Below, piece after piece: positions 35,298 through 54,678 of a stretch of DNA of 64,000 nt. The notes under the pieces are model-generated. The model did not search any database. It was given only the letters and a program-made list of their open reading frames with translations, and was not told the origin of the DNA. Origin of the DNA: Levilactobacillus senmaizukei DSM 21775 = NBRC 103853 (GTDB taxonomy: Bacteria; Bacillota; Bacilli; Lactobacillales; Lactobacillaceae); contig NZ_BCWD01000002.1 of NCBI RefSeq assembly GCF_001592085.1, positions 1 to 64,000 of the forward strand, given 5' to 3'. Within the stretch, counting starts at the first letter, position 1, and every line of letters begins with the position of its first letter. The position numbers and the translations under genes are program-made.

Positions 35298-36179
35298 TTA
35301 AAATGGGGGCTGGTTCACCAAGCGCCGGGGATTCATCAACCGGGGGCGATGCTTGGCAAAACCAGTATTGCTAATCCGAATGGTATCGATCACGGGTTCA
35401 CCTAGCAATAGCGGATGATTCGTCACGCTAGCTAAGCCCCGTTGAATCGTAATGACATTGTAGCTAATTCCGTCATGAACCTCATGTTCATGGGGGTTCT
35501 GGCAATCAATATAAGTGGCCGTCGACCCCACCGAGGTCACGGGAATGCCGTTATCGACCAAATAGCTCGCACCAAAATGTAAGTGCCCGGTAAAGATGCC
35601 GCCAATATTGTGGCCGTGCAGAATCGCCAACAATTCTCGGTTATTCTGCAGGAGGGCATAGCGCATTGACTGTAATGCCGGCGTATCCAGCGGGTGATGG
35701 ACGAAGATAAACGCCCGCCGACGTGGCGCTAGATGGAGGCTCTTATTCAACCAGTTCAGCTGTTCCCGGTCGAGCCAGCCCGCCTCCTTATTGGGTTCCC
35801 ACTTCGAATCCAGAAAATAAAAATCCATGTTCTGATGAACCTGCTTATAAGCATAGTACGGTTGATGCGGTTCTTCTAAGTAACCTTCGTTAAAGGCTTC
35901 CCGGTCGTCTTGATCGCCCAGGATCACCTGAATTGGTGCCCCAATTTGTTTAGCTTGCTGATCTAAGTAGGTGCGGAATTGGGCATAATCTTTGCTGGTT
36001 CCACCGGTTAATAAGTCCCCGCCAATGACAATTAGATTTGGCTCAATCTGCTGACGTCGCACGTCGTCAAACAGTCGCTGGAGTTTATGTTTCGGTTCGA
36101 TCTGTTGATGATACTGTGGCGCGGTCGTTCCCGCCGCCAACTGCGGATCGGATAAATGGACGATTTTGAATTTATTCAT
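35298..36179 (-). CDS. Calcineurin-like metallophosphoesterase
   Basis: A 293-residue cytosolic metallophosphoesterase. The first metal motif is S-D-P-Q near residue 10 (family usually D-x-H), then G-G-D-L-L, G-D-Q-D-D in place of G-N-H-D/E, H-H-P-L-D and G-H-L-H. The Q and D substitutions at two canonical histidine positions are unusual and may reflect altered metal use. Related proteins hydrolyse cyclic nucleotides or other phosphodiesters. No clear ribosome binding site (GGGGG only). It is separate from rsmG. Confidence 0.75.
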   Translation of the reverse strand: MNKFKIVHLSDPQLAAGTTAPQYHQQIEPKHKLQRLFDDVRRQQIEPNLIVIGGDLLTGGTSKDYAQFRTYLDQQAKQIGAPIQVILGDQDDREAFNEGYLEEPHQPYYAYKQVHQNMDFYFLDSKWEPNKEAGWLDREQLNWLNKSLHLAPRRRAFIFVHHPLDTPALQSMRYALLQNNRELLAILHGHNIGGIFTGHLHFGASYLVDNGIPVTSVGSTATYIDCQNPHEHEVHDGISYNVITIQRGLASVTNHPLLLGEPVIDTIRISNTGFAKHRPRLMNPRRLVNQPPF

Positions 36180-36386
36180 ACCCCCGTGGCCCCATCGAAT
36201 AAAGTTACTACCACCGGGAACCCCACCCGGCGACAGCTAAGCTGACTATCACTAAGTTAGGTCTAGCATACCGAACCGATGTAAATTCTCTGTATGAAAT
36301 TCGTCAACATCCTGTAAAGTTTCCGCAGATCGTGCACAAAGTCCCGGCTCAGGGTGCGGTTCGATAAGGCTGGCAACCTCCAGTTG
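36180..36386. other. Intergenic region before repeat copy 7
   Basis: Promoter region of the metallophosphoesterase; nothing else supported. Confidence 0.35.
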
Positions 36387-36509
36387 CCGGAAATGGGCTG
36401 GAACGCGGTGAACAGGATTTTGAGCCACAGCGCGGTCTCAAAAACCCGTTCTGTCTAACCGGAGCAACCCCCTCCGCTAAGGCAGTCCCACGGCTGAGCC
36501 CATTTCCGG
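36387..36509 (+). repeat. Structured dispersed repeat, copy 7 (forward)
   Basis: Arms CCGGAAATGGGCT and AGCCCATTTCCGG are perfect inverted repeats. The core reads GCTGGAACGCGGTGAACA, then the TTTTGAG/CTCAAAA hairpin and a second hairpin ending in CTAAGGCAG. It is the clearest forward copy. Confidence 0.9.
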
Positions 36510-36633
36510 CCGCCCTGCGGTCTTAGATAGATCGTCGAGGTCTAGACTGGTTTAGGACCAAGTCAAAATCCGCGAATTTGAAACAGAGAAGCCCCTGGAC
36601 TCTTTCAATCAGGTCCAAGATTTCAATGGGACA

Positions 36634-36673
36634 GAAAAGCACCAGTACCCACACGGTGGCGAGTATTGGTGCT
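36634..36673 (-). terminator. Intrinsic terminator of the 31-residue gene
   Basis: On the minus strand, GCACCAATAC and GTACTGGTGC arms are followed by TTTTCTG. Confidence 0.8.
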
Positions 36674-36677
36674 GCAG

Positions 36678-36773
36678 TTACTTCTTCGGATGTTTAACGG
36701 GCTTGGCAAACCAAATCATGGGCAACCACGTGACAATCAATAAGATCAACGTATCAAAGTGTACAGCTGACAT
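36678..36773 (-). CDS. 31-residue single-span membrane peptide
   Basis: A short frame from ATG at 36773, with GAAGAGG eight bases upstream, to TAA at 36678-36680. The peptide has one hydrophobic helix (residues 7-23, with L-I-L-L-I-V-T-W-L-P) and a basic tail (K-P-V-K-H-P-K-K). A terminator follows within a few bases. Size, single helix and basic end resemble type I toxins or small regulatory membrane peptides, but I see no antisense RNA promoter. Confidence 0.6.
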   Translation of the reverse strand: MSAVHFDTLILLIVTWLPMIWFAKPVKHPKK

Positions 36774-36964
36774 ACGATCATCCTCTTCCCCTATGCTTGC
36801 CCTCATCATAGCAGGTCTATGTTTCGTTTCTGTATTGAAATGCACCCATTCTTGTAAAGGTTACTAGGGAGAATTCGGATTGCCCACAAATGCCTATTTA
36901 ACGGGGCCTTGTGCCCCTAATTTAGCGATAGCAATTATCGGTGACCGAACAAATATGGCCACTC

Positions 36965-36996
36965 AAAAACGGCCCCCAGCATGTGCTGGGAGCCGT
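36965..36996 (-). terminator. Intrinsic terminator of the nucleoside hydrolase gene
   Basis: On the minus strand, GGCTCCCAGCA and TGCTGGGGGCC arms are followed by GTTTTTG. Confidence 0.9.
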
Positions 36997-37025
36997 TCAT
37001 TAATCATTATCTGTAATTGTTGAAA

Positions 37026-37943
37026 TTAGTCCTTGATAGCCCGAACTTCTTCGATGAACCACTTGTTGAAGGCATCGGCGTCGATATCAACGGAAACCTT
37101 GGCGTTCGTCTTACCATCATGGTAAGCGCCACGGATATCGCCGACCGTTTCACCAATGGCAGCACCATCGGTAACAACATCGATCCACATGTCCTTCGTG
37201 GTAATTGCTTCTGGGTGAAGGAGGTAGAAGATGGTGTTCACATCGTGCATGGCAATCCCGGCGTCACTATTGTCACCGTCGTGGATGATAATGTCATGCA
37301 GCATCTTGCCGGCTTCGTTCAAAGTAGGCAGGGTTTCGATGCTCTTGTGAGTTAACAGGGCCTTCATGGTGATGTCCAAACCAACCATGACGATTGGAAC
37401 ACCGGACTTGTACATGATAGCGGCGGCATCTGGGTCGGTGAAGACGTTGAATTCAGCGGCACTCGTCATGTTCCCCATGCTCAACGAACCACCCATGGCC
37501 ACGATTTCCTTGATGTGGCTCTTAACTTCTGGGTATTCGGAGAAGAGCAACGCAATGTTAGTGTATGAACCGGTTGGAACCAAGGTAATGGGTTCGTCAC
37601 TAGCCATGATTTCGTCATGCAAGGCTTCTACGGCCGTCTTCTTCAATGGCGTTGGTAGGTCAGTTGGGAAGTCATAACCAGGCATCCCGGATTCACCGTG
37701 AATCCGTGCAGCATCTTCAAAGTCCTTGAATAATGGTTGTTCAGCACCACCTGCAACGGGGATGCTTTGGTTAAAGAACCGCACAATCTTTAAAGCGTTG
37801 ATCGTGGTCTTATCAACCGTTACGTTACCGGCAACCGTCGTCACCAGCTTCAAGTCAATCTTTGGGTCATTAATGGCCATGGTTAAGGCCGCTGCATCGT
37901 CAATCCCAGGATCTGTATCCATAATAATCTTAGTTGTCATCAT
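37026..37943 (-). CDS. Inosine/uridine-preferring nucleoside hydrolase (IUNH family)
   Basis: Cleaves ribonucleosides to base and ribose. At 305 residues it has the family calcium-binding fingerprint M-D-T-D-P-G-I-D-D-A near the N-terminus (D10, D15, D16 region), a V-G-L-D-I-T block and a late H-D-V-N-T (catalytic His/Asp) block. The ATG at 37943 follows GGGAGG. It closes a nucleoside-salvage stretch transcribed the same way (pseudo-phosphopentomutase, NupC, NCS2 permease), so it likely acts on imported nucleosides. Confidence 0.92.
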   Translation of the reverse strand: MMTTKIIMDTDPGIDDAAALTMAINDPKIDLKLVTTVAGNVTVDKTTINALKIVRFFNQSIPVAGGAEQPLFKDFEDAARIHGESGMPGYDFPTDLPTPLKKTAVEALHDEIMASDEPITLVPTGSYTNIALLFSEYPEVKSHIKEIVAMGGSLSMGNMTSAAEFNVFTDPDAAAIMYKSGVPIVMVGLDITMKALLTHKSIETLPTLNEAGKMLHDIIIHDGDNSDAGIAMHDVNTIFYLLHPEAITTKDMWIDVVTDGAAIGETVGDIRGAYHDGKTNAKVSVDIDADAFNKWFIEEVRAIKD

Positions 37944-37980
37944 TATTTCCTCCCAATGAATTAATTCGGTTTTTATAATT

Positions 37981-37999
37981 TAAGCGGCGTAACCGCTTA
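37981..37999. promoter_or_regulatory. Palindrome TAAGCGG-N5-CCGCTTA between nucleoside genes
   Basis: Perfect 7-bp arms around CGTAA, 28 bp past the NCS2 permease stop and 38 bp upstream of the nucleoside hydrolase start. It has no T-tail on the minus strand, so an operator is more likely than a terminator. Confidence 0.4.
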
Positions 38000-38026
38000 C
38001 GTTAAACCCTTAAGTAAAGTTCCCCA

Positions 38027-39340
38027 CTATAGCAGGGAACTGAAAATCAAGTCGAGTAGGAACAAAAATCCTAACAGGTACACTGGCCAGGCAACGTGTT
38101 TCCCCTGTCCCAGTGCGAGTTTCATCACCGGATAGCAAACGAAACCGAATGCTAGTCCCGTGGAGATACTGTTGGTGAGTGGAATCAGCACAATGATTAG
38201 AAAGGCTGGGAACCACTCGGCGAAGTCGCTCATCTTAATATTGCCAATGGCTTGCATCATGATCGCCCCGGTAATAATAATCACGGGAGCAATCGCACCG
38301 GATGGCACGTAGGCCAACAGTGGTACGAAGACCAACGACAAGGCAAACATGATGGCGGCGGTCAGCGACATCAGGCCGGTCCGACCACCCGTCTCGATCC
38401 CAGAAGCACTTTCGGCGGCCGCCACGGTTGGGCTGGTCCCCAAGAAGCTAGAAAGGAACGTGGTTACGGAACTGCCTTCAAAGGTCTTCTTGAACTTTCG
38501 TTGGTCGGGCAGTAACCCTTGCAACAAGCCCATTGACTCAAATACCAGAATCATGGTCATCGAGAAAGCGGCCAAGATGAATGGGGTTGAGAGCCAACTG
38601 GAGAAGTCATTTTGAAAGACAATCTTGTGATATTGACCTAGCCGAGCCAGATCAACCGTTGGGGTGTCGGCATCCTTGATCCCAAAGAGGAAGGCCACCA
38701 GACTAGTCGCAATGATCCCAATGAAGAAGTTTCCTTTGACCTTGCGAATATACAAGATGAAGCTCAAGACCAGACCGAACAACGCCAGGAGCGTTGCGGG
38801 TTTGGTTAAATCACCCAACACAATCAGCGACGACTTCCCGGCAACGATTAACCCGGCTTTCTCCAGACCAATCTCCACCAGGAACAGGCCAATACCGGCC
38901 GTAATCCCACTCTTTAGCGATTCTGGAATCGCCTCCGAGAGCACCGTCGACGCCTTGGTAAAGGCAATCAACATATAAACAAAGCTGGCCACCGCAGCGA
39001 TCCCTAGCGCCTCACGCCAACTCAGGCCCATGTTCACGACAACGGTGTACGTGAAGAAGGCGTTCACACCCATCCCCGGCGTCAAGATGATTGGGGCATT
39101 GGCCCAAAAGGCCATGACCAAACAACCAATGATTGACGAGAAGATGGTCGCGAAGACACTCAAATCAGTGGGAATCCCAGCATCCTTTAAGATTAATGGG
39201 TTCACAATGATGATGTATGAGATGGCGAAGAAGCCAGTGACCCCTGCGATCAGTTCGTTGCGGACGACATCCTTATGTCGCAGTGCTTCTCCGAGCGTCA
39301 TTTTCTCCGCCCGTTCCACCTGCGCTTGTTGCTTATCCAT
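38027..39340 (-). CDS. NCS2 family purine permease (guanine/hypoxanthine type)
   Basis: A 437-residue permease with about 12-14 helices. Family blocks include the early I-I-V-N-P-L-I-L-K-D-A-G, then L-T-P-G-M-G-V-N-A-F-F, and G-T-S-P-T-V-A-A-A-E-S-A-S-G-I in the AzgA/PbuG-like subgroup, which imports adenine, guanine or hypoxanthine by proton symport. AGGGATTTTT precedes the ATG at 39340. It lies between NupC and the nucleoside hydrolase. I looked for a purine riboswitch in the leader and did not find one. Confidence 0.92.
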   Translation of the reverse strand: MDKQQAQVERAEKMTLGEALRHKDVVRNELIAGVTGFFAISYIIIVNPLILKDAGIPTDLSVFATIFSSIIGCLVMAFWANAPIILTPGMGVNAFFTYTVVVNMGLSWREALGIAAVASFVYMLIAFTKASTVLSEAIPESLKSGITAGIGLFLVEIGLEKAGLIVAGKSSLIVLGDLTKPATLLALFGLVLSFILYIRKVKGNFFIGIIATSLVAFLFGIKDADTPTVDLARLGQYHKIVFQNDFSSWLSTPFILAAFSMTMILVFESMGLLQGLLPDQRKFKKTFEGSSVTTFLSSFLGTSPTVAAAESASGIETGGRTGLMSLTAAIMFALSLVFVPLLAYVPSGAIAPVIIITGAIMMQAIGNIKMSDFAEWFPAFLIIVLIPLTNSISTGLAFGFVCYPVMKLALGQGKHVAWPVYLLGFLFLLDLIFSSLL

Positions 39341-39609
39341 AAAAATCCCTATCTTTCAGTACGCCAGCTATGACGCACATAGTTCACGGGCATTGCAATC
39401 GGAAGGTCTCATACTTCCGGCTGGGTTTCACTCTCATAGAAAGGTCGACACCCGTACGAACAGCTTACCACAAGCCACTAGAATCTGTCTTGCCTGACTT
39501 TGCTAATTTGTTGACTGCAGGTTGCTAGCCTTTGACTCACAGATCCAGGAGCCTTCGGCTCCGGTTGGCCAGTATGCGGCAATAGTGAAACTAGTCCGCA
39601 CTCCGGCTT
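39341..39609 (-). promoter_or_regulatory. Leader of the NCS2 permease gene
   Basis: On the minus strand the leader holds a hairpin GGAAG-tatgagac-CTTCC at about 39399-39419 and further short stems. It does not contain the conserved core of the guanine/adenine riboswitch. Possible regulatory function unproven. Confidence 0.3.
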
Positions 39610-39731
39610 CCGGGGCTGGAACGCTGTGGACACGACTTCAAGCTTCGTAAAAACCACGAATCTTGAAGGTCGGTCTTATTCTAAGGTGAGAAATTCCCTC
39701 CCCTAAGAATAATTTCACAGCTGAGCCCCGG
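39610..39731 (+). repeat. Structured dispersed repeat, copy 8 (forward)
   Basis: Arms CCGGGGCT and AGCCCCGG. The internal hairpins use other bases than most copies: ACTTCAAG/CTTGAAGGT and TTATTCT/AGAATAA, each still paired. Confidence 0.85.
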
Positions 39732-39965
39732 GTCCTCCGTACTCTAAATTCCATTCTCTAATTACGGTCGGTTAACTGGCAACACCAACCTCCTGCCATT
39801 TTGAATCACTCGGCAAACACGTTCACCAGAGCGACAAATACAGCATTGTATAGTTGATTCACCTGTCAATGAAGAGCATATGGTGCCCATAACCAGCGTC
39901 TAGAGAACCAGTACTACTGGGCTACCGCTATTTCACCAATAGCGATCCCTGTAAGGCGGAGGGCG

Positions 39966-40093
39966 GGCCAGATGGCGCTCAGTCGTGAAATTTTCCTTAT
40001 TCGAGTACTTTTCTCGGATTAGGAAAAGACTGGTCTCAGAGACCGCTCTTTGGCTCTGAGCCACGTCCACGACGTTCCAGCGCCAATCTGGCC
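39966..40093 (-). repeat. Structured dispersed repeat, copy 9 (reverse)
   Basis: Arms GGCCAGATGGCGCT and AGCGCCAATCTGGCC are complementary with one extra base. Internal hairpins are TTTTCCT/AGGAAAA and CTCAGAG/CTCTGAG, both compensated variants. A further hairpin GGAGCC/GGCTCC follows the right arm. Confidence 0.85.
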
Positions 40094-40165
40094 AACCGGA
40101 GCCGATGGCTCCGCACACAAGAAAATCAAAGGCTAAACCCAGTAAAAACTGGTTTTATTGACACA

Positions 40166-40197
40166 GATGGCCCAGAAGCAAATGCCTCTGGGCCATC
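40166..40197 (-). terminator. Hairpin terminator after nupC
   Basis: GATGGCCCAGA and TCTGGGCCATC arms around GGCATTTGCT, 38 bases after the stop; the U-tail is weak. Confidence 0.65.
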
Positions 40198-40234
40198 AAT
40201 TGTATAGAATCACTCACAATGAGCGACGATTAGA

Positions 40235-41488
40235 TTACCAAACGAAGAGCCCAACGATCCCGGCAGAAAGCAGGGAAACAAGGATCCCGGAAAGTAACAT
40301 GTAACCAACGTTCTTAGAGATTAATTCGTTGTTTTCACGGTCAACGATCCCCTTGAAACAACCAATGATCATCCCAGTAGTTGAGAAGTTAGCAAAGGAA
40401 GTTAAGAAGACAGTTAAGATGGCACGGTAGTGAGGTGAGAACGCGTTCGTGTTGATGGTTGAAGCAATCTTACCCATAACAACGAATTCGTTCGTGACTA
40501 ACTTAGTCCCCATGTATTGAGCAAAGCCGAATGCATCGTGGACGCTCAGACCCATTAACCATGCAAATGGGAACATAATGATACCCAAGATGTGTTCCAA
40601 TGATAACCAAGGGTGAACCAAGCCAAGCAACTTATCGATCAGGGCTGCCAAGGCAACGAAGGCGATAACGTTTGCGGCGATGATCAAGATTAAACGACCG
40701 GCACCAAGGATGGAGTCACCCAAGAATGAGAAGAATGGTTCGCGCTTGCCGTCGTCTTCGCCATCTTCAGCAGCAGCGGCGTTTGAGCCACCAACTTTAG
40801 CGATGGTATCTTCTTCAGCAGACACTTCAACCGGGTTCAACATGTTGGTAACGATGATGGCGTTCAAGATGTTAATTGGAACGGCCGTCAGAACAAATTG
40901 ACCTGGAACCATTTGGGTATATGCACCCAAGATAGAAGCGGTGATACATGACATTGACATCATAGCCAGCGTCAAGTTACGTTCCTTACGCATGCTCTTC
41001 AATTGTAATTGAGAAACGGCTAAGGCTTCAGTGTTACCTAAGAACATCATTTCAACAGAGAAGAATGATTCGAACTTAGGTTGACCAGTGATGAATGAAA
41101 GGCCACGACCAACCCACTTGATGATCCATGGCAATACCCCGATGTAAGTCAAGATATCGAACATTGGAACAACTAATAAGATTGGCAGCAATGAACTCGT
41201 AATGAAGTTCATGGTCTTAGCAGTACCACCGTAGTTAGGCGTTACCCAGTTAGGTAAGGCGAAGACGATCCCTTGGTAAGCCACTTGGACCAACCAGTTG
41301 AATCCGTCGGCAGCGCCTTGAACGATTTCACGACCGATACCGAAACTGGTGAAGAACCAGGCTAAGATTAAGTTAAGAACCAGAACGATAGCCGTAGACT
41401 TCCAGTTGATTTTCTTCTTGTTCTTTGAGAACAAGAAAGCGATTGCGAGGTAAACAATTACCCCTAAAATATTGACTGCGATTAGCAT
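40235..41488 (-). CDS. nupC: NupC-family concentrative nucleoside transporter
   Basis: A 417-residue CNT family transporter importing nucleosides with protons or sodium. Family blocks include F-E-S-F-F-S-V-E-M-M-F-L-G-N-T-E-A-L-A-V (substrate-binding hairpin), T-A-S-I-L-G-A-Y and the C-terminal F-A-N-F-S-T-T-G-M-I-I-G. The acidic insert E-D-G-E-D-D-G-K around residue 243 is a cytosolic loop. GAAAGAGG precedes the ATG at 41488. The next gene upstream is the phosphopentomutase homologue. Codon use is highly adapted, suggesting high expression. Confidence 0.94.
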   Translation of the reverse strand: MLIAVNILGVIVYLAIAFLFSKNKKKINWKSTAIVLVLNLILAWFFTSFGIGREIVQGAADGFNWLVQVAYQGIVFALPNWVTPNYGGTAKTMNFITSSLLPILLVVPMFDILTYIGVLPWIIKWVGRGLSFITGQPKFESFFSVEMMFLGNTEALAVSQLQLKSMRKERNLTLAMMSMSCITASILGAYTQMVPGQFVLTAVPINILNAIIVTNMLNPVEVSAEEDTIAKVGGSNAAAAEDGEDDGKREPFFSFLGDSILGAGRLILIIAANVIAFVALAALIDKLLGLVHPWLSLEHILGIIMFPFAWLMGLSVHDAFGFAQYMGTKLVTNEFVVMGKIASTINTNAFSPHYRAILTVFLTSFANFSTTGMIIGCFKGIVDRENNELISKNVGYMLLSGILVSLLSAGIVGLFVW

Positions 41489-41756
41489 TGGTCAAAATAC
41501 CTCTTTCCGATATTGTTTTGATGAATGACGCCAGTGTCATCCAAAAGTTGACTCGATGTTTCCTGCAGAAATTATGTACAGCATAACTTCTATATGTGAA
41601 CGAACAGCACCAGTTCTCGACAGGTCGTCAATCCAGCGGCAAGAAAAATGGCGAAAATCTATCAATAATGATTTGTCGCTGATTGCCTGACAACTCTACG
41701 TTGCGGTCCCTGGCTTGGTGCCCCTCACCTCCTTTCAAATGGTTGTTCATTCACGG

Positions 41757-42581
41757 TTACTGCGTGAGTTCATTTAAAAAACTATGTCCTGCGGCGCGGG
41801 CAGCCAAACCGTAATTTTCCAAAACGGTGGCGCCCACGTCAGCTAACGTGCGGCGAATGCCTAAGGCGTGTCCCCGTGGTCGTGACGATGATGCCACGAT
41901 CAAGGGAAGATACTCTCGCGTCGGTTGCATGGTCCCCACCGGGTCACTGGCCTGCGTCGCGGTGACGATTAACAAGTCGTTGGCTGCCATATCCTGAAGC
42001 ACCTGCCCCAGGTATTGGTCGGCCTGAATTAACGAATCGCCAAACGCCTGCACGTCGTGTTGCCGAGCCGCGAAGCGGAAATCTGGCAACATCACGTAGG
42101 TTAACCCGGTGTCGGGATGGTTCAATCGGTTAAAGAGTACGCGAAATGCCCCGCGATTGTCCCCCAACTGGAACCGTCGGGTGCGTCGCTGGGTTTGTAA
42201 GTAACTGAGAAACGGCCCAGCTACCGTGACTGGATAACCAGCCGCTGGCAGCGTATCCAGCACGCTCTCCGTGCGATAGGCCCCGGTATAGTCCCACATT
42301 TCTCGCAAGCCGGTCGCCGGATGATTCCCGGTCGCCTGCATGTGGAGTCGGCCAAAGAACCCCGTCGGTTGGTCAACCGGGGCAATGCCCGGCAATTCAT
42401 GACCAATCCGAATATTTCCTAAGCCTAACTCCTGAAATGTTGGAAGATTTAGCTGACCGGTCCAACCAGCGGCGACATGCCCGATGGTATCCGCCCCCAC
42501 AGATTGAAAGCGATTTGCTTCCGGCGCTTCCCCCAAACCTAACCCGGCAAAATCGATAACGAAAATGCGATGAAAGGCCAC
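41757..42581 (-). CDS. Degenerate phosphopentomutase (DeoB) homologue
   Basis: A 274-residue protein clearly related to DeoB (usual length about 390): it keeps the opening V-I-D-F-A-G-L-G, G-A-D-T-I-G-H-V, L-G-L-G-N-I, N-D-L-L-I-V-T-A and T-R-E-Y-L-P-L. But the metal and catalytic residues are replaced: A-D-H-G-N-D becomes A208-T-Q-A-S-D, T-D-H-T-R-E-Y becomes M-Q-P-T-R-E-Y, and the K-D-T-x-T-G-H-W-E phospho-threonine block becomes N-H-P-A-T-G-L-R-E. Part of the cap domain is missing. It is therefore probably not an active phosphopentomutase; a binding or regulatory role is possible. GTG start at 42581, nine bases after AAGGAG. It lies upstream of nupC. Confidence 0.8.
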   Translation of the reverse strand: MAFHRIFVIDFAGLGLGEAPEANRFQSVGADTIGHVAAGWTGQLNLPTFQELGLGNIRIGHELPGIAPVDQPTGFFGRLHMQATGNHPATGLREMWDYTGAYRTESVLDTLPAAGYPVTVAGPFLSYLQTQRRTRRFQLGDNRGAFRVLFNRLNHPDTGLTYVMLPDFRFAARQHDVQAFGDSLIQADQYLGQVLQDMAANDLLIVTATQASDPVGTMQPTREYLPLIVASSSRPRGHALGIRRTLADVGATVLENYGLAARAAGHSFLNELTQ

Positions 42582-42939
42582 TATTTCTCACTCCTTAGGT
42601 GAAATTCCTGTAAATTCTCCCCCGACGTTTTTTTGTCTAGTAATAATATACCTTTTCCCGCCAAGCCTGTAAATGGCCGATTTGCGAAAAGCGGAAATTC
42701 GTAATTTCCGAACATTGGCACCCTTAATTATTTCGATTGGCCCGTCCCAATCCCGGTTGCCGAACGTCCTCAAAAAGTTGATAAAAGGATTTACTAACAA
42801 CAATTTGTCCTGTTTTCAAAGATCAAAAGAAAGGCTGACCCCGTGGTACTTAGGGGATCTTGGTGTGTTTCAAAATCTAATCGTTACATAGCTAAAACTG
42901 GAAAAATCTAGTTGAACCGAACGACCAACTTCCTAAAAC
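42582..42939. other. Upstream region of the DeoB-like gene
   Basis: On the minus strand it holds the promoter region with an AT-rich -10 (TATATTATTA at about 42643-42652). It also contains the palindrome at 42692-42710. No other gene is supported. Confidence 0.4.
42692..42710. promoter_or_regulatory. Palindrome CGGAAATT-cgt-AATTTCCG, candidate operator
   Basis: Perfect 8-bp arms with a three-base centre, about 110 bp upstream of the DeoB-like start and 40 bp upstream of its likely -10. The symmetry fits a dimeric repressor or activator. Confidence 0.4.
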
Positions 42940-42983
42940 TAAAAAACGGGCTTCAAGTTTTTTGGAGAATACTTGAAGTCCGC
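42940..42983 (-). terminator. Terminator of the large structured RNA
   Basis: On the minus strand, CGGACTTCAAG and CTTGAAGCCCG arms are followed by TTTTTTAG: a textbook intrinsic terminator with no protein gene ending near it. Confidence 0.92.
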
Positions 42984-43527
42984 TAACTCTCGGAAAGGAG
43001 GTTGTGACGACTACTTAATTTCCGTTTCGAAATCATTTTAATACTTAATCGCCTCATTACTTTAATTTCCCAGCTGAGCTGTCACAGTCCAACTACAATC
43101 ATATGGTTTAATTTCTGACTGTCGTTTCAGCTTGTCACGTCGAATCTAAAACTTTAATCCCTTCATCATACCAACAAGACACGCTCCAACGATTCTTATT
43201 GAAATCTTCGCATGACCCTTGTTACCACAACATCCGAGCTCTAGCTAACGCCTGGAACTGTTCTCAAGTCTGTCAACATCGCGCTTTGACAAGCGCTAAA
43301 CTGAATTCCCTTATTCAATTGTCGATGGTGCTTGATTCAAATACTTTTAACACTGCCTGGAACTGCTAGAGTTCGTTAGAAGGTTTACCTTAGTTGCATT
43401 GAATCTTTCAGTATCTCGGAGTTACTCAGAAACTCTGACTCACGTTACCAAAACGGAAATCATAAATGTTCCTGTTGCTTAAGTTACCTTACCGATGTTA
43501 CTGTCACAACCTTTGATACCTTTCCAT
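42944..43527 (-). ncRNA. Large (~580 nt) structured non-coding RNA
   Basis: Minus-strand transcript predicted from about 43527 to the terminator at 42944. No frame longer than short fragments is open across it. Its ends pair: GGAAAGG (43525-43519) plus AGGTTGTGAC (43512-43503) match GTCACAACCTCCTTTCC (43008-42992) perfectly, with a six-base bulge. Inside, ATTTCCGTTT (43460-43451) pairs with AAACGGAAAT (43027-43018), and CTCTAGC (43371-43365) with GCTAGAG (43245-43239). Local hairpins include GCGCTT-GTCA-AAGCGC. The 11-mer CAGTTCCAGGC occurs twice (43365-43355, 43260-43250). Size and ornate fold recall the ROOL/GOLLD classes of large bacterial RNAs, but I cannot confirm membership. Confidence 0.78.
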
Positions 43528-43533
43528 GGCTTT

Positions 43534-43562
43534 ACTATAGCACTCGTTGTAAGCGTTTGCAA
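43534..43562 (-). promoter_or_regulatory. Promoter with overlapping cre site for the large RNA
   Basis: On the minus strand, -35 TTGCAA (43562-43557), 17-base spacer, -10 TATAGT (43539-43534). The -35 overlaps TGCAAACGCTTACA (43561-43548), a perfect match to the cre consensus TGNAANCGNTNNCA. A CcpA dimer bound here would block RNA polymerase, so the RNA should be repressed on preferred sugars. Confidence 0.85.
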
Positions 43563-43595
43563 TCAAAATGCGTAAATTTTCTTCCCTAATTAAAT

Positions 43596-43637
43596 AAAAA
43601 AATACTGCCAGTGATCAGCGACCACTAACAGCATTTC
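43596..43637 (-). terminator. Terminator downstream of the NAD(P)-binding gene
   Basis: AATGCTG...AGTGG and CACT...CAGTATT arms on the minus strand with a TTTTTTT tail. It ends transcription about 250 bases after the stop at 43887 and insulates the promoter of the large RNA. Confidence 0.85.
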
Positions 43638-43886
43638 CGCAAAGTATGAATCAATTCCAGGCAAATCCATGGGTTCTTGTTTGGAGGAAAGGTTCACAGA
43701 ATGAGCTCAGTAAATTGATTCCATATTAAGTAATTGGAGCAATGATTCATGCGGAGCTTTTACTCAACGCACACCCTAGTTATACCGCGAATCACGGCCC
43801 ATTGCACCCTTTTTGACCGCCTAAATTAGCCGGTCTGGTAACGAATGCCGGGCGCTAGGCGTTCCGCTCCGGAAAAAACTTTTAGC

Positions 43887-44525
43887 CTATTTCCAGACTG
43901 GCTTATCACCATCGGTGTTGGGCTTGTTAACGCCCAAGGATTCATGAATGGCTTGCGTTGGATTGGCCACCAGCTTCGTGACCAAGGCCGCAATCGACTT
44001 CCGTGAGACTTCGGTTCCCTTGAAGGCCTCACCCTTCTTAGTCGTTTCGTAGTCAATCTCATCATGATTGGATAACCAGGCCGGCCGGATGATCGTGTAG
44101 TCCAGGTCGGACCCTTCAATGGTCTTCGCTGCGGCGGCGTAAGTTTCAAGGTAGCCCCCGTCCAGCATCTGGTGATTCCACTTGCCGTAAGCCCCAGGGA
44201 CCTCATCGTAAATGCCTAACGTGGAAATCCAGATCAGGCGCTTCACACCGGTGGCATCCATGGCACTGACAACTGCCTTGGCTTCATCCTCAATCTTACC
44301 GGCCAGGTTGGCATAGACGACATCGATTCCGGCTAAGGCGGCCTTCAAGTCGTCGGCGTTGCCGGCATCACCATCGATCACCTTGACCCGGTCACTTGCC
44401 TTATCGGCTAACCGGTCGGCGTTGCGCAGGAATAACGTCAAATGGTTGTCGGGATTGGCCAACAGTTGGTCGGTTGCTAAACGAGCAATTTGCCCATGAG
44501 CACCTAATACTAATACGTTTGTCAT
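43887..44525 (-). CDS. NAD(P)-binding SDR/NmrA-like protein
   Basis: A 212-residue Rossmann protein. The N-terminal V-L-V-L-G-A-H-G-Q-I-A-R has the glycine pattern GxxGxxA/G of atypical short-chain dehydrogenases (NmrA/YwnB type). It then has V-I-D-G-D-A, D-V-V-Y-A-N-L-A-G and I-W-I-S-T-L-G-I-Y. There is no classic YxxxK at the usual place, and R-P-A-W-L-S matches the R-P-x-x-L block of these proteins. They commonly act as NAD(P)H sensors or reductases. The ATG at 44525 has only a weak AAAAAGAAAAGGGG upstream. It is monocistronic. Confidence 0.85.
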   Translation of the reverse strand: MTNVLVLGAHGQIARLATDQLLANPDNHLTLFLRNADRLADKASDRVKVIDGDAGNADDLKAALAGIDVVYANLAGKIEDEAKAVVSAMDATGVKRLIWISTLGIYDEVPGAYGKWNHQMLDGGYLETYAAAAKTIEGSDLDYTIIRPAWLSNHDEIDYETTKKGEAFKGTEVSRKSIAALVTKLVANPTQAIHESLGVNKPNTDGDKPVWK

Positions 44526-44671
44526 TGTACAGAACCCCTTTTCTTTTTATCTACGGTTATACTGTAACTCTGGCAATTACATTTAGCAAGCAAAGAGGTT
44601 TAAACTTTTTCGGCTACCGCAGGTAGCTGATTCTTTATCTATTGTCCCCCAATACTCCTCGGTCGCCTTGC
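44526..44671. other. Spacer between the NAD(P)-binding gene and repeat copy 10
   Basis: AT-rich promoter region of the minus-strand gene; no other supported feature. Confidence 0.35.
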
Positions 44672-44800
44672 GGCGCTTTCGGCGCTGGAACGCTGTGGAC
44701 ACGACTTCAAGCCTTGAAACCCGCAAGTCTTGAAGGTCGGCCTTATTCTAAGCCGCCCAGCCCGCGACTAAGAATAACCTCACAGCTGAGTGCCCGCGCC
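44672..44800 (+). repeat. Structured dispersed repeat, copy 10 (forward)
   Basis: Core GGCGCTGGAACGCTGTGGACA...CACAGCTGAGTGCC. The internal hairpins are ACTTCAAG/CTTGAAGGT and TTATTCTAAG/CTAAGAATAA. The outer arms are partly degraded (GGCGCT/AGTGCC with G-U pairs). Confidence 0.8.
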
Positions 44801-44867
44801 TCCAGGCTCCCCGTTTAATTCAAAAGCCAGTCCGACCTTGCCCAGTACCCGTGTCCCTTCATTCCGA

Positions 44868-44899
44868 CAAAAAGGCATCGACCAATTGGTCGATGCCTA
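44868..44899 (-). terminator. Intrinsic terminator of the 129-residue gene
   Basis: A perfect palindrome AGGCATCGACC/GGTCGATGCCT followed by TTTTTG on the minus strand. Confidence 0.92.
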
Positions 44900-44915
44900 T
44901 AAAACAAATATGCTA

Positions 44916-45305
44916 TTATTTCTTCTTCGGTCTTAGTTTCAGCCAAGCATAGCCGGCAATGCCCAGGAAGATTGCGCCAAATCGTAGAACAACGTCAATC
45001 CCCCAGTCGCTGAGTTTGTCCTTACCGTTCGACCGGCCACCGGCATCGGTCCCAAAGCTACCAGTGTTTTCACTGCTGATGTTGACCCGACGCGCCTCTT
45101 GGACTGGATTCTTGTTCGTCATGTCAATGTCCTTATAGTCGCTTTGACTCCAGTGGCTGTAGACCGTTGGGAAAAACCAAGCGTAACTAATGACCAGATA
45201 GACTGTCCACCAGGACCACTTGAAGCCCATGGACTGTGGATCGAGATTCATGACGATTAAGATCAAGATGAGTGGGATTAGCCCCTTTAAGTAAATCCGT
45301 TTCAT
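44916..45305 (-). CDS. Membrane protein of unknown function, 129 residues
   Basis: Three hydrophobic segments (residues 6-23, 29-48 and 103-121) with a polar, Ser/Gly/Asn-rich loop between 50 and 100. It ends in a basic tail K-L-R-P-K-K-K, so the C-terminus is probably cytosolic. The ATG at 45305 follows AAGGAGA. Monocistronic with its own terminator. Family not recognised. Confidence 0.65.
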   Translation of the reverse strand: MKRIYLKGLIPLILILIVMNLDPQSMGFKWSWWTVYLVISYAWFFPTVYSHWSQSDYKDIDMTNKNPVQEARRVNISSENTGSFGTDAGGRSNGKDKLSDWGIDVVLRFGAIFLGIAGYAWLKLRPKKK

Positions 45306-45335
45306 GTCGCTGTCTCCTTATTACAAGTTCAGTAA

Positions 45336-45365
45336 ATAAAAAGCATCAGCTTGTCAGCTGGTGCT
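45336..45365 (-). terminator. Intrinsic terminator of the 88-residue gene
   Basis: On the minus strand, GCACCAGCT and AGCTGATGC arms are followed by TTTTTATTT. Confidence 0.85.
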
Positions 45366-45373
45366 AGCTCTAA

Positions 45374-45640
45374 CTAGATTAACATAAGCGTGACGCCCTT
45401 GATGGGAGTCAGGCTATCGCCGAGGTCACCGAAAATCAATGGCTTCTTGAAGACCGCTTGGTCCAGTTCGACGAGGTTCGTTTTTTCAATCGTTAGATGA
45501 TAACGGCCATGCCGGTCCCGACGAAGTTCGTAGTTCACGAAACGTTGTTCGGGGGCGTAATTCGCGAAGTGCGCGGCATAATGGCCGAGCTGATGGGATA
45601 CAACTAGACGAATCCCGTTTTCATCTTCAAAGATATGCAA
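45374..45640 (-). CDS. Small hypothetical protein, 88 residues
   Basis: A soluble protein with alternating hydrophobic strands (I-R-L-V-V-S, F-V-N-Y-E-L-R, Y-H-L-T-I-E) and a C-terminal G-V-T-L-M-L-I. The start is TTG at 45640, nine bases after AGGAG. It has its own terminator. No family recognised. Confidence 0.6.
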   Translation of the reverse strand: MHIFEDENGIRLVVSHQLGHYAAHFANYAPEQRFVNYELRRDRHGRYHLTIEKTNLVELDQAVFKKPLIFGDLGDSLTPIKGVTLMLI

Positions 45641-45933
45641 AATTGTTCACTCCTATATTAATTAGAACTGCCGCTACCGGGCTAGTCACTTTCAGCCGCG
45701 GTAGCTGCGCTAAGTTCTTAAACCACTCAGCGTCGCTAACGCGTTCCTCTTTGTGTTCTGATTGTACCATACTTACTTAAAAAAATTTAGTAGGCGCCAA
45801 AACTCCCTTAAAATTCATAATGTTTTGACCAATAACTCTTGTTGTCAGCGAATAACAATGATTCAATATTAAGTAGACGGTTTTCAATAGCCTACGAGAT
45901 TGTATGGAAGTTGGTAGAGGTTGGCTCGCCTGC
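45641..45933. other. AT-rich intergenic region
   Basis: Promoter region of the 88-residue gene plus about 150 bp of AT-rich DNA; nothing more supported. Confidence 0.35.
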
Positions 45934-46056
45934 GGCGGCTAGGTTTCGCGCTGTGGGCACGCTTTAGAGCCAAAGGACGGTCTCTAAAGTCGGCCATGCT
46001 CTAAGTGGGAAAAATCCCCACTAAGACCATTGTCACTGCGCTTCACCTAGCCGCCT
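45934..46056 (+). repeat. Structured dispersed repeat, copy 11 (forward)
   Basis: Arms GGCGGCTAGGT and ACCTAGCCGCC are perfect. The internal hairpin CTTTAGAG/CTCTAAAG is a double-compensated variant; the second hairpin is CTAAGTGGG/CCCACTAAG. Confidence 0.85.
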
Positions 46057-50826: not shown

Positions 50827-52618
50827 ATGACTATCAAGATTCGCCGGCTCATTCTTACCGGTCTTTCACTCGTACTAATTGGCGGGGTATTGTCCCCGAC
50901 TGTCGTCCAAGCGGCAACCACCGATCCGTCGGCGACTACTTCTGATCCCAGTGACACTGGCACCACCGTTACTTTCGGCGCCATGCAATTGCCCTACGTC
51001 TTAATCACGGATAGCCATGGAAAAACAACTAAGGTTCCCTGGTATCCTGATGTCAAATCCCAGATTATTCCTCGTGACACAATTCTCGGAGATGACAACG
51101 GGCTCACCTTTGCAAATGATCTAAAAGCTTCGGAGCCAAATCATCCCGACACCCCAGGGACTGCTGGAAAGATGGCCCAGCTGGCAGACTCCGGCAGCAC
51201 ACTGAAGCCTGGTGACAAATTTGCTGACTACCTAATTTCACGACGCGTGTATTCCGCAGCTAAGACTTCTGCCGACATAACCTCCATCTATGAAACCATC
51301 GCCTATTCCTATGCTTGGTTATTCGAATCGCTTGCCAAAGCCCAACTGCATCAGACCAACTTTACAGCTATCCACGCAGATTACATCCAGAATGTCTTAT
51401 CAAAACTTAAGCCAGAAAAAGATATGATCGGTAGTGAAAACTGGCAACTGTTTGAAAATACTATGTCGGATGAGAGCAAATTTAATGATATGGCATCAGC
51501 CTTATTAAATGACACCGCCGAATTCCACTTAGATAGTCTCACAGTCGATCAACTGGCCCGGTTGGATCCCACAGCCTCAAAAACTGCCGAGGCTAAGTTA
51601 CTGCAAACACCGATGACTGATCTCGTCACGAAACAAACCGACGGGACCATGTTAGCCGATGGACTCCTAAGTAGCTCTTCCTTACCATCCGCCTATGTCC
51701 TTAAATCCGTAGCATCGTCTACGGCTACCAGCCACCCTGTCACCGTCCACTACGTCGATGAACAAGGCAACACCTTGAAGCCAGACAAGACCTTAACGGG
51801 TTCACTCGGCGAAGACTACAAGACGGAACCACTCAGTATCGATGGCTACCAACTTGTTAAGACGACTGGTGATGGATCTGGCAAGTTTACCAGTTCCGAT
51901 CAATCCGTCACTTACACCTATCGCAAAGCAGCGGCCAACATTGTGGTTAAGGACAGCGTAGTCTACGCCACCAAGAAAATTGGCCTCTACGCATCCCCAA
52001 AGTTCAGTAAGCAGGCTCTCTTGACCACCTACGCTAAGAAGTCTCGGATGAACCGGCCAATGTTCAAGGTCATCGGCACCGCTACCTCGAAGAACGGCGT
52101 CAAGCACTACAAGGTGAAGGACCTCAACGGTAAAGGAACGACTGGTTACATCACGACCAAGTCCAGCTACGTTACGCCACTCTACTATGCTAAGAAGCAA
52201 AAGCGCGTGACCGTGATTAACGCTAATGGCCTTAACTCTTATACCAAGAGTAATTTGACTGGTAAGGCGGCTCACTACAAGCAAGGTCAAGTCCTCAAAA
52301 TAAAGCAGATTATTCACCACAACCTGACCACCCGCTTCGTCCTTAACAATGGCAAATACATCTCTGCCAACAAAAAAACTGGTCATCGCGGGTAAGTACA
52401 AGATGCCTAAGCGCGTCCAAGCCAAGACGGCGATCAACCGTTACGGGACGGCTAACCTGACGAAGAAGAACAAGCACTTCGCCAAGAAGTCTACCTTCAC
52501 CATTAAAGGCTGGGCCTACTCCAATACCAACAACTTCCGCAAGGGCGACACTCTGCGGTATAAGGTTGCCGGTGGTTACATCACCGGAAATTCTCGTTTT
52601 ATCAAAACCTTCAGATAG
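50827..52618 (+). pseudogene. Secreted MucBP/DUF5776 protein, frameshifted (paralogue 1)
   Basis: Signal peptide residues 1-30 (cleavage near V-V-Q-A-A), unique N-terminal domain (about 40-290), one MucBP repeat (S-H-P-V-T-V-H-Y-V-D-E-Q-G, about 297-362) and a DUF5776 C-terminal region. The frame breaks at the run of seven A's at about 52371-52378: this copy has N-K-K-T-G-H-R-G-stop. Removing one A restores N-K-K-L-V-I-A-G-K-Y as in both paralogues, and the second frame continues to 52618. Full length would be about 596 residues. It may be inactive, or kept alive by slippage at the A-tract. Confidence 0.85.
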
Positions 52619-52641
52619 AAAATTAATAACAACTTCTTCAA

Positions 52642-52675
52642 GTCCCGAACGAACTGGTCCGGGACTTTTTGTTTG
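52642..52675 (+). terminator. Intrinsic terminator of paralogue 1
   Basis: AGTCCCG and CGGGACT arms followed by TTTTTG. Confidence 0.85.
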
Positions 52676-52706
52676 TCTTGCCTATATTCTTTTTATCATC
52701 GAACAA

Positions 52707-52715
52707 TGTTAAACT
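52707..52715 (+). promoter_or_regulatory. Extended -10 of the second MucBP paralogue
   Basis: TGTTAAACT, matching TGnTAnACT, 37 bases before the start codon. Confidence 0.6.
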
Positions 52716-52751
52716 ATAGATGTATAAATATGAAAAAAGTGAGGCGTTCGC

Positions 52752-54545
52752 ATGGATAAATGGACTATCAAATTACTCATTGCCAGTTTTTCGTTGTTCC
52801 TAATTGGCAGCGTTTCCACACCAATAACTGTTCAAGCTGCCAGTAATGCCCCCGGTTCCGAGACAACTGACCCTGGGACCTCTACAGCGACAACTATACA
52901 TTTCGATACTTATGAATCCCCTTATATTATGATCTATGATGGTACCAATGCGCCCACCAAAAATTATTGGTATCCACAAGCCGACTCACAGACTTATACT
53001 CTGGCCGAAATTTCAGCTCCAGACTTTGCGGCAACTTACCCCAAAGGCGTCACGGACCCACTAATGGTAGAAGAAACCACTGATATGATGAAAAAGCATG
53101 CCTTCGCAAAATTTTCAGTTTTCCTTGATGATAGTTTAGCACAACACGTTTATGATCATTTTTATCCTCAGGGAGCAGATGACGGCGAGTCATATATCCA
53201 GCTACATACCATGTACATGCACTACTGTCTCTGGGCCATCAAAATGGGTGCGGAACAAAAATTAGGAACCTTCAACTTCACGGCTGCTAAGCATGAATAT
53301 TATGCCACAATCCGACCATTGCTTGCCCGTCTTGATGTACTTCAACCAGGTGGCACTTCTTACGTTTCGCACCTCGATCCCATCTTTGCAGCCGACAACG
53401 ATACAGATAGTCTTATACCTTCCCTGGGCGCGGTTCCATCATTTCATCTCACTCAACTCAATACTAAACAACTTGCTAGATTGGATCCCGCGGCCTCCGA
53501 AGAAAAAGATACCCAAATACTTAAAAAGCCGGTAAGTACCTATATTCAGAATGTTAATGGCAAAGTTCAAGCCGATGGTGCCATATTTACGGGACTGTTT
53601 CAGCCGCTTACGGTGGTCTTATCACCCGAACCAAGTGTCGCTCACGCCACCAGCCACCCCGTCACCGTCCACTACGTCGATGAACAAGGCAATACCTTGA
53701 AGCCAGACAAAACCTTAACGGGCTCACTCGACGATAACTACAAGACGGAACCACTCAGTATCACTGGTTACAAGCTGGTTAAGACGACAGGCGACGAATC
53801 TGGTAAGTTTACCAGCTCCGATCAATCCGTCACCTACACCTATCGCAAGGCTCCGGCCGACGTGGTGGTTAAGAACAGCGTGGTCTACGCTACCAAGAAG
53901 ATTAGTCTCTATAGTTCCCCAACTTTTACCAAAAAAGCCATCAAACAAACTTACGCCAAGAAATCGCGGATGAACCGGCCTATGTTTAAAGTCATCGGCA
54001 CCGCTACCTCAAAGAACGGCGTTAAACGTTACAAGGTTAAGGACCTCAATGGTAAAGGAACGACCGGCTACATCACCGCAAACAGTGATTACGTTGCGCC
54101 ACTCTACTATGCCAAGAACCAAAGCAAGATTACCGTGATTAATCCTAAGGGTCTCAACGCCTACAGCCGGAAGAATCTGACTGGCAAGGTAGCCCACTAC
54201 AAGCAAGGCAAAGTGCTCAAGGTGACTCAGATTGTTCACCACAACCTGACGACTCGCTTCGTTCTCAGCAATGGGAAATACGTCTCCGCCAACAAGAAAC
54301 TGGTGATTACCGGCAAGTACAAGATGCCTAAGCGCGTCCAAGCCAAGACGGCCATTAACCGTTACGGTACCGCCAACCTGACGAAACGCAATCGCCACTA
54401 TGCCAAGAAGACGCATGCCACCTTTAACGTGACCGGCTGGGCTTACTCCAACGCGAATAACTTCCGCAAGGGAGACACCTTGCGATACAAGGTTGCCGGT
54501 GGCTACATCACCGCAAATAACCATCTCGTTAAAGCGCTCAAGTAA
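52752..54545 (+). CDS. Secreted MucBP/DUF5776 protein, paralogue 2
   Basis: 597 residues: signal peptide 1-28 (cleavage near V-Q-A-A), divergent N-terminal domain, MucBP repeat (S-H-P-V-T-V-H-Y-V-D-E-Q-G-N-T-L), and DUF5776 repeats with V-V-Y-A-T-K-K-I and F-K-V-I-G-T-A-T-S-K-N-G-V ending in A-N-N-H-L-V-K-A-L-K. The MucBP and DUF5776 parts are nearly identical to paralogue 1, the N-terminus is not, pointing to gene conversion or domain selection. No LPxTG; retention is probably through the basic DUF5776 region binding the cell wall. MucBP domains bind mucin; here that is by family only. Confidence 0.9.
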   Translation: MDKWTIKLLIASFSLFLIGSVSTPITVQAASNAPGSETTDPGTSTATTIHFDTYESPYIMIYDGTNAPTKNYWYPQADSQTYTLAEISAPDFAATYPKGVTDPLMVEETTDMMKKHAFAKFSVFLDDSLAQHVYDHFYPQGADDGESYIQLHTMYMHYCLWAIKMGAEQKLGTFNFTAAKHEYYATIRPLLARLDVLQPGGTSYVSHLDPIFAADNDTDSLIPSLGAVPSFHLTQLNTKQLARLDPAASEEKDTQILKKPVSTYIQNVNGKVQADGAIFTGLFQPLTVVLSPEPSVAHATSHPVTVHYVDEQGNTLKPDKTLTGSLDDNYKTEPLSITGYKLVKTTGDESGKFTSSDQSVTYTYRKAPADVVVKNSVVYATKKISLYSSPTFTKKAIKQTYAKKSRMNRPMFKVIGTATSKNGVKRYKVKDLNGKGTTGYITANSDYVAPLYYAKNQSKITVINPKGLNAYSRKNLTGKVAHYKQGKVLKVTQIVHHNLTTRFVLSNGKYVSANKKLVITGKYKMPKRVQAKTAINRYGTANLTKRNRHYAKKTHATFNVTGWAYSNANNFRKGDTLRYKVAGGYITANNHLVKALK

Positions 54546-54568
54546 TCCCCGCTTTCTCAACTCCCCCA

Positions 54569-54598
54569 AGGTCAAGACGTCAAGGTCTTGACCTTTTA
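54569..54598 (+). terminator. Intrinsic terminator of paralogue 2
   Basis: AAGGTCAAGAC and GTCTTGACCTT arms followed by TTATTT. Confidence 0.85.
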
Positions 54599-54633
54599 TT
54601 TATCTGCACACCCAGTTTTTTAATATCGATTTG

Positions 54634-54642
54634 TGCTAGACT
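54634..54642 (+). promoter_or_regulatory. Extended -10 of the third MucBP paralogue
   Basis: TGCTAGACT, matching TGnTAnACT, 37 bases before the start codon. Confidence 0.6.
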
Positions 54643-54678
54643 GAGCATATAAATAACTGAAAACTATGAGGTGATGAG

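Follow-up and report, generated by a model that had tools for sequence, protein, structure and literature searches.

The deo operon of L. sakei has the order deoC-deoB-deoD-nucleoside symporter-purine transporter-deoR-pdp, as described in PMC3146418. In three relatives (loci L171, L172, and L173), a genuine deoB gene was found after a DeoC-family gene and before nupC and an NCS2 permease gene, with a PNP_UDP_1 phosphorylase gene located just before nupC. The deo operons of L172 and L173 additionally contain a pyrimidine-phosphorylase-type gene, and a gene for a sugar-binding regulator is located next to deoB in L173 and after the permease gene in L171. The six metal ligands of DeoB are D13, D286, H291, D327, H328, and H339 in the numbering of the B. 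cereus phosphopentomutase (PPM), and the catalytic Thr or Ser is at position 85 (T85 in B. cereus PPM). YejM is an alkaline-phosphatase-superfamily protein that is used as a regulator and acts in lipopolysaccharide control.

We analyzed a stretch of 64,000 nucleotides from Levilactobacillus senmaizukei DSM 21775 = NBRC 103853, hereafter the window, in which a DeoB homologue is encoded at the following locus:

41757..42581, minus strand: pseudo-phosphopentomutase of 274 aa with a GTG start, a DeoB homologue lacking cap and metal ligands, assigned by homology searches and alignments
40235..41488, minus strand: nupC, CNT-family nucleoside transporter, over the Pfam cut-off and below the NCBIfam nupC cut-off
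38027..39340, minus strand: NCS2-type (Xan_ur_permease) permease
37026..37943, minus strand: RihC-type ribonucleoside hydrolase

The pseudoenzyme gene is thus followed by the gene of the CNT nucleoside transporter, the nupC that the initial annotation had placed downstream, and then by those of the Xan_ur_permease protein and the RihC-type nucleoside hydrolase. The order of nupC and NCS2 is the same as in the Lactobacillaceae deo operons of L171 to L173 and of L. sakei (PMC3146418). In contrast to these operons, the window locus contains neither a phosphorylase nor an aldolase gene, a nucleoside hydrolase gene is found instead, and the pseudoenzyme gene replaces deoB. Elsewhere in the window, positions 50827-56499 hold three tandem, similar, secreted-looking ORFs with a common VTVHYVDEQGNTLKPDKTLTG-type segment.

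Homology to DeoB and lost residues

The ORF at 41757-42581 (minus strand) starts with GTG and comprises 274 codons plus a stop codon; its Shine-Dalgarno sequence is AAGGAG, in line with the open frame and strong ribosome binding site claimed for it earlier. The window protein matched the B. cereus phosphopentomutase with an E value of 7e-42 (phmmer) in two stretches, pairing residues 3-103 with chain positions 9-102 and residues 97-273 with chain positions 219-398. Since only these parts of the chain are matched, the cap between them is missing. The score against the Pfam family Metalloenzyme (PF01676) was 45.4 bits versus a cut-off of 24.3, which places the protein among the homologues of this core, while the score against the NCBIfam deoB model (TIGR01696), 110.5 bits versus 341.2, did not reach the DeoB cut-off. 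Judging by the strength of these matches, the homology to DeoB is not a chance match. Compared with DeoB (TIGR01696; B. cereus PPM, PDB 3m8w), the protein has the core fold in common and a core sequence agreeing at 30-38% over ∼270 aligned columns (15 DeoB sequences). It differs in lacking the cap, the catalytic Thr, and the metal ligands, in scoring below the family cut-off, and in having an invariant new Asp10. In the literature searched, we found no paper that joins the terms phosphopentomutase and pseudoenzyme, and a search by title and start of abstract returned nothing on this gene.

A first AF2 model, for which 20 close relatives were used, was of poor quality with a pLDDT of 49, whereas a model built on 29 sequences reached a pLDDT of 70.7 and a pTM of 0.78, with an unreliable segment at residues 78-103 (pLDDT <50). 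The best PDB matches of the latter model were phosphopentomutases (E 2.8e-16), a fold match that is not independent of sequence homology, since the 29-sequence alignment held one genuine DeoB, from a viral contig. Weaker matches were phosphoglycerate mutases, sulfatases, and YejM. The periplasmic domain of YejM (PDB 6vat) and the model have the fold of their superfamily in common (Foldseek E 1.6e-4, probability 1.00), and in both an enzyme fold would have been turned to regulatory use. Unlike YejM, the window protein has no membrane segment (highest 19-residue hydropathy 1.08) and belongs to a different lineage.

Alignments with genuine DeoB showed that all six metal ligands of B. cereus PPM are replaced in the window protein (D13 by A12, D286 by R169, H291 by R173, D327 by T209, H328 by Q210, and H339 by P220), so that none of the six is left, and that the catalytic T85 corresponds to P88. 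The motifs DHG, DHT, and TGHWE, which the initial annotation had described as lost, read TQA, QPT, and TGLRE. It had also proposed that part of the cap is lost; cap loss was indeed found, and it extends to essentially the whole cap, with ∼120 DeoB residues absent. In one alignment the motif REM(W/F)D appeared to lie on a cap helix, an assignment that was dropped because a second alignment and phmmer agree on a single excision of the cap.

The motif-filtered alignment and tree comprised 36 of the 75 distinct relatives and 15 of the 27 available DeoB sequences, and the sequences dropped by the filter included all eight genuine DeoB retrieved from the genus of the window. The residue counts were repeated on the full set of 75 relatives and 27 DeoB. 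All six metal ligands are kept in 27 of 27 DeoB, whereas 39 of the relatives keep none, 34 keep one, and two keep two; His328 alone is retained in 33 of 75. Position 85, which is Ser or Thr in every one of the 27 DeoB, is occupied by 14 different residues among the 75 relatives (Ser in four, Thr in none). The free variation at several metal positions fits a loss of the ligand site as well as its reuse.

Other positions became fixed or nearly so. Asp10 is present in all 75 relatives (Val in 27/27 DeoB), Arg93 in 71 (Trp in 27/27 DeoB), Tyr127 in 70 (Ile in 27/27 DeoB), and Arg103 in 67. Residues of DeoB are retained beside the excision point (Glu94 in 75/75 and Asp97 in 71/75 relatives) and adjacent to the former DHG and DHT motifs (Asp213 and Thr221, each in 73/75). 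A divergent subgroup of genus g20 (L073, L080, L081, and L082) lacks Arg93, Asp97, and Arg103; its members have Asp10, have lost the REM(W/F)D motif, and are still located at nupC. From the alignments, an alkaline-phosphatase-type core is kept, the cap is excised, the metal site and the catalytic Thr are lost, and new residues are fixed.

Gene context and control of the locus

The comparison of gene context took in 67 loci. The named loci among them number 27, of which 25 bear the title Levilactobacillus and two Lactobacillus sp.; the other 40 come from the 58 carriers found in other genera. Several of the 67 loci end at contig ends. In 64 of the 67, the gene that follows directly, on the same strand, is nupC, the exceptions being L070, L073, and L083. 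Overall, nupC is present at 65 of 67 loci, a nucleoside hydrolase gene at 54, and an NCS2 permease gene at 49. The upstream neighbor is variable (GDSL hydrolase, NAD-binding protein, and others), and rsmG-noc-parA-parB, named by reading of the sequences, is often found beside the locus. This context backs the link to nucleoside uptake made in the initial annotation, and regulation or scaffolding of nucleoside uptake by the pseudoenzyme is the best-supported function, which we put forward tentatively, at slightly less than even confidence.

The pseudoenzyme is not obligately tied to NupC, since 20 of the 32 pseudoenzyme-free genomes that were searched have a NupC of at least 63% identity, and since L070 and L083 carry the pseudoenzyme without nupC at the locus. 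In L174, L175, and L189, nupC, the hydrolase gene, and rsmG follow each other without a pseudoenzyme gene, and L186 and L187 are arranged likewise with one extra ORF. In genome G094, nupC is located on another contig, and in G034 NupC was not matched at E 1e-30.

The main rival to a role as regulator or scaffold is a new, metal-free activity, which we consider unlikely. The gained Asp10, Arg93, and Arg103 together with the retained Glu94 and Asp97 would form a new active site after loss of the cap, and the fixation or near fixation of these five residues in the 75 relatives speaks for it, with Asp10 in place of the Val of DeoB. The g20 subgroup, however, lacks three of the five, and the geometry of the putative site rests on the poorly modelled segment 78-103, so that the arrangement of Asp10, Arg93, and Arg103 could not be judged. 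Moreover, we know of no metal-free enzyme of this fold.

It is even less likely that the protein is a ligand-free structural partner or chaperone of the nucleoside hydrolase or the NCS2 permease rather than of NupC. The frequency of the hydrolase gene (54/67 loci) would suit such a role, as would L083, where the hydrolase gene adjoins the pseudoenzyme gene and nupC is absent. However, nupC is far more often the next gene (64/67), and L060 and L061 have nupC and neither a hydrolase nor an NCS2 gene among the ORFs called nearby.

The region upstream of the pseudoenzyme gene contains the following elements:

42645..42673, minus strand: predicted promoter TTTACA-17-TATATT, which is conserved when the upstream regions of the window and the 27 named loci are aligned
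42704..42716, plus strand: PurBox-like site ATTTCCGAACATT, whose left end lies ∼135 bp before the start codon
42782..42794, minus strand: conserved box GTAAATCCTTTTA, located farther upstream than the PurBox-like site in the alignment of named loci

The PurBox consensus is given as AWWWCCGAACWWT in PMC3547956. All 27 named loci have the PurBox-like site in the same place (21 exact, four with one mismatch, and two with two mismatches) and an intact CCGAAC core, compared with nine of 502 other upstream regions of the 67 loci in the same test. Among the 40 loci outside the genus, a PurBox with at most two mismatches was found in three, one of them exact. PurR is encoded in the genome of the window, and boxes with one or two mismatches were seen by eye upstream of purR and purA. 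The genome-wide count of exact matches was discarded as uninformative, as it gave three matches, two of them away from purine genes, versus two in a backwards control. In B. subtilis and L. lactis, PurR responds to PRPP (PMC10912719). For the Levilactobacillus operon, PurR/PRPP control is also probable.

By eye, we noticed a hairpin at 42944-42985, upstream of the promoter, with a T stretch after it on the minus strand. It may be the palindrome noted previously on this side of the gene, although the terminator scan did not call it.

The gap between the pseudoenzyme gene and nupC measures 268 bp (41489-41756) and contains three further elements:

41723..41737, minus strand: SD-like TGAAAGGAGGTGAGG just behind the stop codon, its core unchanged across the aligned gaps (18 of 28)
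41567..41591, minus strand: inverted repeat AGAAGTTATG...CATAATTTCT, kept in the 18 of 28 aligned gaps
41525..41540, minus strand: small variable hairpin before the nupC ribosome site, with few double-sided pair changes

The gap is 243-298 nt long in the named loci versus -26 to 130 nt in other genera with nupC next. Its alignment covers 18 of 28 gaps, those left out including L037, L038, L040, and L041; the inverted repeat has diverged in L038 and L040. By eye, no start codon was seen at the usual distance from the SD-like sequence, and covariation of the gap hairpin is limited (covariation term -1.2 in the 18/28 gaps). A search of positions 36000-46000 against Rfam gave two hits far below the gathering scores, neither of them in the gap, which led us to reject a known RNA element in the neighborhood of the gene. 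Possibly, the gap is an mRNA-stabilizing or regulatory leader.

Distribution and selection

A family search of 397 genomes found a short full-length relative in at least 83, which belong to eight of 40 genera (25 carriers in the genus of the window, 22 in g14, 16 in g23, 10 in g26, six in g20, two in g32, and one each in g34 and g36). The 83 carriers were counted by eye and divergent members may be missed. Within the genus, the identity of the 25 carriers to the window protein is 67-100%, and with the deoB model the pseudoenzyme was detected in 35 of 35 genomes, 29 of which also have a genuine deoB that passes the cut-off. In an order-wide search with a 32-sequence profile (395 genomes), every match with an E value of 1e-46 or better lies inside the family, and the best match outside (2.5e-34) lies in a 396-residue frame. 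One split divides all pseudoenzymes from all DeoB with a support of 1.0 on unrooted trees of both sets (36 vs 15 and 75 vs 27 sequences). No internal stop was present in any listed match of the family search. The L. tangyuanensis orthologue (L031:5001-5804) lacks six residues in an otherwise conserved segment around LPTLQ.

A plasmid origin was rejected, as all 34 plasmid records have an identity <60% and nine of the ten listed are annotated as phosphopentomutase. A viral origin was likewise rejected, as no relative of the pseudoenzyme alignment was found among viral contigs.

In 39 of the 83 carriers, including the genome of the window, no other DeoB match was found at E 0.001 (a count also made by eye), and the same holds for every carrier seen of g23, g26, g32, g34, and g36. 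This argues against the pseudoenzyme being a partner of DeoB, i.e., a dominant-negative or regulatory subunit of the genuine enzyme, which the core common to both proteins could suggest. As the assemblies are drafts, single absences are no proof; six of the 35 genomes of the genus also lack a DeoB above the deoB cut-off, and this reading is largely refuted and was rejected as very improbable.

The dN/dS ratio between the window and L. tangyuanensis is 0.028. Of the 378 pairs that the window and the 27 named loci form, 33 had a usable dS (0.1<dS<1) and gave a median of 0.036 for the pseudoenzyme; the remaining 345 were outside this range or saturated. The medians of the neighbors, each from its own and different set of pairs, are 0.076 for nupC (356 pairs), 0.029 for the NCS2 permease (51 pairs), and 0.060 for the hydrolase (323 pairs). 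Over all pairs, the median pN/pS of the pseudoenzyme is 0.229 versus 0.085-0.095 for the three neighbors. The pseudoenzyme hence diverges faster than its neighbors but is plainly constrained, and dN/dS reveals strong purifying selection. A decaying pseudogene kept by chance, to which the faster divergence and the six-residue deletion in L. tangyuanensis might point, has a negligible probability in view of the low dN/dS values and the lack of internal stops and was rejected on dN/dS.

The gene is neither confined to one strain nor evolving neutrally, since it is present in 35/35 genomes of the genus and at least 83/397 of the family and is under purifying selection, and its relatives show the same losses. 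Judged on sequence, catalytic residues are lost while the protein is conserved under purifying selection. The description of a conserved non-enzyme in the initial annotation is thereby sustained, and that the protein is a conserved pseudoenzyme derived from DeoB appears close to certain. At least eight lactic acid bacterial genera retain the gene intact, so that it probably has a non-catalytic job.

Origin and proposed role of the pseudoenzyme

The genome of the window (99.4% complete, 74 contigs) yielded neither a second DeoB nor DeoC, a Pdp-type enzyme, or DeoD, and its sole PNP_UDP_1 protein is an MTA/SAH nucleosidase. Together with the deo operons of the three relatives, this suggests a deoB that outlived its pathway. 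The ancestor would have been the deoB of an operon like deoC-deoB-phosphorylase-nupC-NCS2, in which RihC-type nucleoside hydrolysis took over from phosphorolysis, turning the deo operon into a transport-plus-hydrolysis operon. The former deoB would have survived through having a non-catalytic job.

If the pseudoenzyme regulates or scaffolds nucleoside uptake, its core would still bind a pentose-phosphate or nucleoside-derived ligand in the region of the old pocket, where the neighbors of the lost ligands (E94, D97, D213, and T221) are retained, and by contact it would tune NupC or another product of the operon. The more specific proposal that a former mutase without pathway, cap, and metals serves, in at least eight genera, as a ligand-sensing subunit that regulates a concentrative nucleoside transporter from the cytosol is speculative and rather doubtful.

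For annotation, the gene is a warning, as it matches deoB models, yet no phosphopentomutase above the cut-off was found in the genome of the window. If regulation of NupC is true, the pseudoenzyme would be a cytosolic regulator for the CNT transporter family, and to our knowledge no other is known. The pseudoenzyme seems to be a natural example of an enzyme outliving its pathway: one bacterial family contains deoB-nupC operons as well as genomes that have both genes and others that have just the dead version.
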